This document shows positions 60,899 to 63,245 of a DNA stretch of 64,000 bases, in pieces. The notes under the pieces are model-generated. The model saw only the letters and a program-made list of their open reading frames with translations, made no database searches and was not told where the DNA came from. Within the stretch, counting starts at the first letter, position 1. The number at the start of each line of letters is the position of its first letter. Made by a program: the position numbers and the translations under genes. This DNA is from Thermus aquaticus (GTDB lineage: Bacteria; Deinococcota; Deinococci; Deinococcales; Thermaceae): assembly GCF_001280255.1 (NCBI RefSeq), contig NZ_LHCI01000106.1, positions 1,811,228-1,875,227 on the forward strand, in the 5' to 3' direction.

Positions 60899-60938
60899 GG
60901 GCCAGGGGCAAAGTTGGATAGGGGTGCAAAAGTCCGGG

Positions 60939-60984
60939 CCTCGAGGCCCCTCCTAAGGGAAGAGGGGGGAGCCTATCCCCCCTC
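60939..60984. terminator. Hairpin between the efflux operon and the Mrr remnant
   Basis: GAGGGGGG (60962-60969) pairs with CCCCCCTC (60977-60984) around a 7-nt loop and is followed by CCTTT. A perfect palindrome centred on CCTCGAGG (60939-60946) lies just before. It could end transcription from both sides. Confidence 0.55.
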
Positions 60985-61827
60985 CCTTTCCCCATCCGCT
61001 CAAAAGTCAAAGGCGGACCAGAGGCCCTTGTCCACGATGAGCTCCGCCAGTTCCCTCCCGCCCAGGATGCCGATCCGCAGGTTTTCCCGGTTCAGGTACT
61101 CCTCGGCTGCGCGGTAGGCCTCCTCGCTCACGTCCCCCGTGGTGATCACCAGGCCCATATCGGCCACCCCCGCCCGCAGGGCCTGGGCCAGCTGGTCCAC
61201 CGCGTCCTTTCCCATGGGTTTTCCGGGCTGATAGAACTTGGCCTGGATGCCGACGGTGACCAGCAACCCGCCCATGAGTTGGAAACGGGCTATCACGTCC
61301 GCCCCCTGGTCGCTCCTTCGGGGGACCCACTTCGCCTCCACAGCTCCCACGGCCTGAGCCATCCTCTCCACGAGGGTTTCAAAGCGGTCGGGGTTCATGC
61401 GGCCTTGGGTGAGCTCCTGGCGCACGGCCTCCACCATGCGGGCGCGAAGTTCCTGGGCCAGGTTGGGCGTTTCGCCCCGCTTGGCGTCCTCCAGGACCTT
61501 TTCAATGTGTTTCACCAGGTCGCTGGTGTCCAAGAGAGTCCCGCGGGCCTTCATCCGGCTCTGCAGGGCGGCCGAGGCCAGCTCGCGGGGGATGGGCTTC
61601 TTGTCGTTGAGCCAGCGGACGAGCCTGCGGTGGGCAGCGACGGGGTGGCTCTCGTCGTAGTAGGGGTCCCCCACCACCTCGGCCACGTAGAACTGGCCCC
61701 CCGAGGGAACCACCACGTAATCTCCTGGCTTCATCTCTTACCACCAGAGGGACATCGCGAAGTTGCGCGCCAAACGGTTGTTCTCAATTTTATAGGCGGC
61801 TTTCACCCGCTCGCGGAAATAGTAATA

Positions 61828-62741
61828 CCTTCGTGTGCTACTTGACCCCAACCCCTGGGGTGTGAAAAAAGGGGGGTGCTATGCTTCCAGACCGGGAGCA
61901 CCCCCTCTACTATCTTGACGCAGAAACCCTCCTCGTGGCCATCTACGTCTGGGTAGATGACGAGCTCAAGGCCCTTCAGACCCAAGGGTTCAAGCTCCCC
62001 CCGAAGCAAAGGCACCAGAAAGCCACCCTGGCTGAACTCCTGACCCTGGCCATTTTTCTCCTGCTGCAGGGCCAGGACCTGGCCAAAGGCTACCTGGCCG
62101 CCAAGACCACCCTGAGGGCCTACTTCCCCTCCCTGCCCCACCTCTCCCGCTTTTATCGGGTCCTGCAAAAGGCCCAGGGGTTGTTGGCTCACCTGGCCAT
62201 CCGCCTCGCCGGGGGGATGGGTCTCCTCCAGGTGGTGGACCTCAAACCCATCCCCCTGGCCCACGGCCACCGGGTCCACGGTCTCTCCCTCCCTGAAGCC
62301 GCTGTGGGCGTGGGGCCCCTGGGCGCGTTCGGCGGTTACGTGCTGATGCCGGTGATGAACGAGCGGGGCCTCTTTTTTCGCTGGGCCCTTCTCCCCGGAA
62401 ATGCCCGGGAGACCTGGGGGAGGGACTTGGTGGCGGACCTCCCCGCGGTCTTGGGAGACCGGGGTTTTCGCTGGGTCCAGGGGGTCAAGACCCCACCCTA
62501 TCGGGTCAGGGGAGGAAGGTTGGTGGAAACAGGGTGGAGAAGGTGGATGGGGAAGGTGCGCAACTGGATAGAGACGCGGTTCAGCGTGATGGTGCGGTCC
62601 TTGGGCCTTCACCGTATAGAAGCTCGGTCCTTTTGGGGCCTGGCGGCCCGGGTAAACCTGATCCTCTTGGTCCACAACCTCATTCGGAGCCGGGTCTTGC
62701 TCAGGATGGCCGGGGTGGAGCTATGAGGTAGCACACGAAGG
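61828..62741 (+). mobile_element. 914-bp insertion sequence, probably IS982-like
   Basis: It is bounded by perfect 14-bp inverted repeats CCTTCGTGTGCTAC (61828-61841 and 62728-62741) and flanked by the 4-bp duplication AATA (61824-61827 and 62742-62745). It holds one transposase gene. The duplication is intact, so the insertion is recent. Confidence 0.88.
61881..62726 (+). CDS. DDE transposase of the insertion sequence
   Basis: This 281-residue RNase H-fold transposase has the acidic residues in VVDLKPIPL, LGDRGFRW and NWIETRFSVMVRSLG. The N-terminal helical region (KATLAELLTLAIFLLLQ, PSLPHLSRFYRVLQKA) resembles IS982 proteins. GGGGGG precedes the ATG. The frame is intact. Confidence 0.85.
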   Translation: MLPDREHPLYYLDAETLLVAIYVWVDDELKALQTQGFKLPPKQRHQKATLAELLTLAIFLLLQGQDLAKGYLAAKTTLRAYFPSLPHLSRFYRVLQKAQGLLAHLAIRLAGGMGLLQVVDLKPIPLAHGHRVHGLSLPEAAVGVGPLGAFGGYVLMPVMNERGLFFRWALLPGNARETWGRDLVADLPAVLGDRGFRWVQGVKTPPYRVRGGRLVETGWRRWMGKVRNWIETRFSVMVRSLGLHRIEARSFWGLAARVNLILLVHNLIRSRVLLRMAGVEL

Positions 62742-62877
62742 AATAGCTCAGGCCCTCTGCCAATAGGCCCTTAACCTTTTTCCACCCCACGAAGATCTCG
62801 TCCTTCTCCAGGGCCTCCTGGGTCAAGTCCTGTTCCAGGGGGGCCAGCCGCAGAATAAAAACGTTCCTGCCTTCCAT

Positions 62878-63245
62878 TCTCGCCCACCTCTCTCCGTCCC
62901 TTTTCCCTAAACCCTTTCTCCCCTAACGCCTTTCCCGGGCCAAGGTAAGGGCCGTCATGTTGCTTGCATCTTGCCCCCTAGGGGAGGCCCTACCGCCCCG
63001 GTTGCCGGGCTCCCACGCCCGCGGGATTGATGCCGCCCCGGCCTCCCCGCCGCACGGCATCCCGGTCGCCAAAGACCGCATCCGCATGGACGGCCCACGG
63101 GGTCGGGTGGCCACCTCCCTCACTCTACCCAACCCTCTAAGGTGCTATAGTGGGAAGCGCCGGGGCGGGCGCCCCCCCTCGGAGCCAGACTTCCCCCTAA
63201 AAGTAAGCGTCCCTTTTCCCCATGGGGGAAGGGAAAGGAGCGGGC
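62878..63245. other. Gene-free, hairpin-rich region before aconitase
   Basis: I see no real gene here. GGGGAGGCC (62981-62989) and GGCCTCCCC (63040-63048) pair perfectly around inner hairpins (CGGGC/GCCCG at 63006-63021). Further on CGGTC/GACCG and a GGCC-rich hairpin follow. TATAGT near 63143-63148 is a possible -10, and a CCCTTTTCCCC-AT-GGGGGAAGGG hairpin (about 63209-63232) precedes the aconitase ribosome site. This could be an unannotated structured RNA. Confidence 0.45.

Follow-up and report, generated by a model that had tools for sequence, protein, structure and literature searches.

Probable horizontal acquisition and recent inactivation of an Mrr-type restriction gene in Thermus aquaticus

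Results

Organization of the locus

The window, i.e., the whole 64,000-nucleotide stretch of T. aquaticus DNA that was analyzed, contains on its minus strand an Mrr-type gene (62877-61000) with two lesions, an inserted insertion sequence (IS) and an in-frame TAA codon. The features of the locus are as follows (window coordinates, strand, description).

60905..63139, no strand: strain-specific segment with the Mrr-type gene, between an alpha/beta-hydrolase gene and acnA (from comparison with other Thermus)
62743..62877, minus: 5' part of the gene (codons 1-45, MEGRNVFILRLAPLEQ...LLAEGLSY), 84% identical in amino acids to the same residues of the intact copy
62742..62745, no strand: target-site duplication, copy 1, AATA (from the sequence; 4-bp NATN duplications at related copies)
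61828..62741, plus: IS982-like insertion sequence, 914 bp, with 14-bp terminal inverted repeats (from the sequence and related copies)
61881..62726, plus: transposase open reading frame (ORF), 281 amino acids, uninterrupted (NF033520 match)
61824..61827, no strand: target-site duplication, copy 2, AATA (from the sequence)
61741..61827, minus: continuation of the 5' frame as far as SLWW, separated from the start by the IS; in frame without the IS and one AATA, and collinear with intact homologues
61738..61740, minus: in-frame TAA; compared with every intact homologue, 6 nt are deleted here (from the alignment)
61000..61734, minus: intact 244-amino acid ORF (C-ORF) with the predicted second half of a YTH/PUA-like domain, a linker and the Mrr_cat nuclease domain (Pfam, PADLOC and conserved-site analysis)

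When the IS and one AATA are removed, a single frame is reconstructed that runs from the ATG at 62877 to the TAA at 61740-61738, beyond which it continues with GAG ATG to a TGA at 61000. This is exactly what the original prediction had stated, namely that excision of the 914-bp element together with one AATA restores one frame while the TAA persists.

The inverted repeats of the IS (CCTTCGTGTGCTAC) are identical at 14 of 14 positions, and AATA is present on both sides. Related copies, both in this genome and elsewhere in Thermus, end in the same way and are usually flanked by a 4-bp duplication of the NATN type (GATA, CATT, AATG, AATA, TATT), and therefore neither the boundaries of the IS nor the size of its duplication are due to chance. 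Terminal inverted repeats and a target duplication, both repeated at related copies, identify the element as an IS insertion irrespective of its family. Since the transposase scores 71 bits (E 1e-19) against NF033520, for which the curated cut-off of the IS982 family is 130 bits, the element at 61828-62741 is on its sequence named IS982-like only. Such copies and fragments are common across Thermus. A recent burst of the IS in the same genome was considered and rejected, the nearest other full copy being just 90% identical. In four different Thermus species, an IS982-like element occupies one site with identical flanks (L018-L021), which, as judged from these sequences, points either to an insertion of old date or to a transferred segment that the species share.

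Intact homologues and the nature of the second lesion

A protein search identified intact, full-length homologues on the T. thermophilus plasmids pHB5018c (WP_201351613.1) and pTthSNM1-1b (WP_244455032.1) and on the contig CALKFO010000030.1 (here L006), while no homologue of the Mrr-type gene was found in the viral contigs, phage records, and PDB sequences searched. Contig L006 is filed under a Candidatus Bipolaricaulota metagenome-assembled genome (MAG). Its 3-kb downstream flank is mostly 99-100% identical to Thermus genomes, with such stretches in three of them, and by its sequence we regard L006 as Thermus plasmid-like DNA that was misbinned into the Bipolaricaulota MAG. In the pTthSNM1-1b homologue (L068 10001-10963), tyrosine replaces D219 (D219Y), a residue of the D-x-G-x-D motif in the nuclease domain that is invariant in all other copies. 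This copy is possibly inactive, and possibly another damaged one.

All three intact Thermus copies are collinear with the empty-site reading of the window and continuous through the position of the stop. Aligned from start to stop codon, the empty-site sequence differs from them in length by a single gap of 6 nt located exactly at the TAA: the intact copies read ...CTC TGG GAC TTC CTC AAG TGG ATG..., the window ...CTC TGG TGG TAA GAG ATG.... At the protein level, the W-x-F-x-x-x-M pattern of the homologues has become W-W-stop-E-M. A simple point nonsense mutation is ruled out by this gap, and the alignment identifies the second lesion as an in-frame two-codon (6-bp) deletion with the TAA at its junction. 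The TAA may have been created by one deletion alone or by a deletion plus a substitution. Beyond the two lesions, the comparison with the three intact Thermus copies revealed no further frameshift or stop. Relative to these copies, the gene qualifies as a pseudogene by virtue of the IS and the 6-bp deletion with its TAA.

The stop position is likewise read through in five homologues of greater distance (35-41% identical), which have the W-x-F-x-x-x-M pattern. The original prediction had proposed alignment with intact homologues as its check, and the three Thermus copies and five distant relatives all read through the SLWW/EMKPGD junction. It had also specified that homologues starting at MKPGDYVVV with unrelated upstream sequence would contradict it; all homologues found carry the upstream part. 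The list of ORFs alone would suggest such a start, with the 244-amino acid ORF being a natural gene and the upstream ORF unrelated to it. However, the upstream part stands in the same frame in every homologue and has an identity of its own of 84% across codons 1-45, so that this reading is refuted by the intact copies and can practically be dismissed.

Domain composition and predicted fold

The C-ORF matches Mrr_cat (PF04471) with 64.5 bits (cut-off 21, E 1e-17), which places it among the Mrr-type restriction endonucleases. The PD-(D/E)XK-type residues D219, D223, and Q241-x-K243, which are invariant in the family, are retained in the window. In PADLOC, the intact homologue matches the candidate defence family PDC-S02 (residues 18-313 of 321, E 1.7e-26), the C-ORF of the window matches the same profile with residues 1-236 (E 3e-25), and methyl-directed enzymes of type IV are matched more weakly.

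For the intact homologue, an AlphaFold2 model reached a mean pLDDT of 84.7 and a pTM of 0.54, and in a fold search with the whole protein the modification-dependent enzymes AspBHI and MspJI were the sole matches below E 0.001. The N-terminal domain modelled alone (pLDDT 88.5, pTM 0.80) retrieved YTH domains at ranks 1-15, a weak match with a TM of about 0.4 and a best E of 4e-3, while no Pfam family covers this domain. In its predicted fold, the N-terminal domain thus looks weakly similar to YTH/PUA modified-base readers. These models suggest, as the most likely activity, that the intact enzyme recognizes a modified base through the N-terminal YTH/PUA-like domain and cuts with the C-terminal PD-(D/E)XK domain, i.e., that it is probably a modification-dependent restriction endonuclease. 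Both lesions (residue 45; residues 74-76) are located inside the N-terminal domain.

The position of the second lesion also bears on the question of whether a C-terminal protein could still be made. After the deletion, the gene might have worked as a two-cistron unit by termination-reinitiation at TAA-GAG-ATG, leaving the IS as the sole true knock-out, or the short ORF might be working now from another promoter. The ATG follows the stop at a distance of 3 nt and is preceded, 6 nt upstream, by a GGTGG, which could allow a restart of the 244-amino acid ORF, and the C-ORF is undecayed. However, this ATG encodes Met78, an internal residue that is invariant in the family, and a crude scan detected no sigma-70-type promoter-like site on either strand. 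A restarted protein is very improbable, since the break interrupts a single predicted fold, past a long helix and ahead of the last strands.

Chromosomal setting

No close homologue of the Mrr-type gene is present in the genomes of 26 other Thermus species, and neither a chromosomal copy nor one with only one of the lesions was found in the other genomes examined. In relatives, the hydrolase gene and acnA directly adjoin each other or are separated by a small ORF of ~340 bp, and the homology of the window to these genomes ends near 60905 and resumes near 63140. Since close homologues are absent from the 26 species and the flanking genes adjoin in many genomes, the gene was probably acquired, and these sequence comparisons point to horizontal transfer.

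The hydrolase-acnA spot is variable in Thermus (L070-L095), being empty in some species, occupied by the ~340-bp small ORF in others, and by the restriction gene here. A repeat of ~175 bp at 62957-63132 has further copies, with 82-89% identity, in this genome and in eight others of Thermus, and in T. brockianus pTbrSNM4-1b it is located directly 5' of an IS110-family transposase gene. By its sequence, the repeat resembles a solo left end of an IS110 element, situated at the border of the acquired segment that faces acnA.

Age of the inactivation

The nuclease ORF is intact, and its pairwise dN/dS against L006 is 0.38 (bootstrap 0.26-0.53). At sites conserved among the five outgroups, the C-ORF of the window has 1 break and the intact L006 has 8, and against an HMM of the outgroups they score 253 and 248 bits, respectively. 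Because dN/dS is low and conserved sites are kept, most of the divergence took place under constraint, and on these sequence measures the gene was inactivated recently compared with the time of the split between the two copies; the low dN/dS would also fit a C-ORF that is still somewhat constrained. The lack of further stops lends weak support to a recent inactivation, as in simulations 5-12% of wholly neutral branches showed none either. Ordering the lesions by segment decay was tried and abandoned, as the segment of codons 46-73 is too short (dN/dS 0.52, bootstrap 0.19-1.37).

Discussion

Taken together, we consider it likely, with a probability of roughly 0.85, that the gene at the locus was gained by horizontal transfer and has recently been inactivated, and that it encoded a restriction endonuclease of the Mrr type, from the PADLOC candidate family PDC-S02, which probably depended on DNA modification. 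The double knock-out that the original prediction had proposed agrees with the IS, its duplication, the TAA, and the collinear intact homologues. We propose that the gene was acquired by horizontal transfer. Its predicted reader domain has been hit twice, in whichever order: a 6-bp deletion took out two codons, with a TAA now standing in frame, and a separate insertion of an IS982-like element at codon 45/46 duplicated AATA. Each lesion on its own would suffice to abolish the full-length protein, presumably with loss of function in the cell.

Two further claims of the original prediction were not supported. The undamaged IS duplication was expected to order the events; with just 4 bp it dates the IS loosely and is silent on the stop. 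The two lesions were also taken to suggest selection against the gene, but once either of them had inactivated it, the other was neutral, and therefore no selection is demonstrated. The locus represents ordinary gene loss, and its double damage by itself is no proof of selection.

A methylation trigger for the loss of the gene is nevertheless possible: if the enzyme attacked a methyl mark, e.g., 6mA, set by a methyltransferase of its own host, cells that lost it would be at an advantage. Methyltransferases were sought family by family, and the genome encodes several N6/N4 enzymes, including a type IIG restriction-methyltransferase of 1105 amino acids (L117 2121-5435, C107; 2056 bits to PDLC03631), while the 5mC methyltransferase family PF00145 had no match in it. 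Such selection would be in line with the resemblance of the N-terminal domain to YTH 6mA readers and with the D219Y copy, possibly another damaged one. Conflicts between 6mA-dependent enzymes and methyltransferases have been discussed for related systems (PMC11037411). However, a pair of lesions is to be expected even in the absence of selection, and a random hit by an element as common in the genus as the IS982-like one needs no special cause. We therefore regard selected loss as unlikely. The type IIG enzyme has the same length as reported for TaqII, 1105 amino acids (PMC5587805).

A more general form of this idea is less probable still and is offered as speculation. The PDC-S02 proteins would be 6mA-reading (YTH-like) type IV nucleases that clash with the adenine-methylating type IIG enzymes of Thermus, and hence be acquired horizontally and repeatedly inactivated. 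Adenine-methylating type IIG systems are common in Thermus. If such a conflict exists, the locus would be the record of one such purge.

Returning to ordinary loss of an acquired gene, the locus is a well-resolved example of a defence gene being lost, with intact reference copies for comparison. The 6-bp deletion refines an otherwise ordinary picture; the lead is the YTH-like reader joined to an Mrr nuclease, a fusion that looks little described and whose intact plasmid copies can be assayed.

The transposase resembles the IS982 family in its profile match over residues 51-268 and differs in its score under the cut-off; the element here has the ends CCTTCGTGTG... and a 4-bp NATN duplication. 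The T. thermophilus plasmid enzymes are orthologues with 79% amino acid identity over the C-ORF (measured on the near-identical L006), 84% DNA identity, and the same length except for two codons, whereas their genes are plasmid-borne and uninterrupted and the pTthSNM1-1b copy has D219Y. Both the intact homologue and the C-ORF match the PDC-S02 profile over their whole length, although the copy in the window is split and interrupted and PDC-S02 is itself a candidate defence family. The best whole-protein structural matches, MspJI and AspBHI, combine an N-terminal reader with a C-terminal Mrr-like nuclease, the layout that is predicted here. Their reader domain is SRA-like, whereas the N-terminal domain here is predicted to be YTH-like, and the protein has no sequence match to any solved structure.
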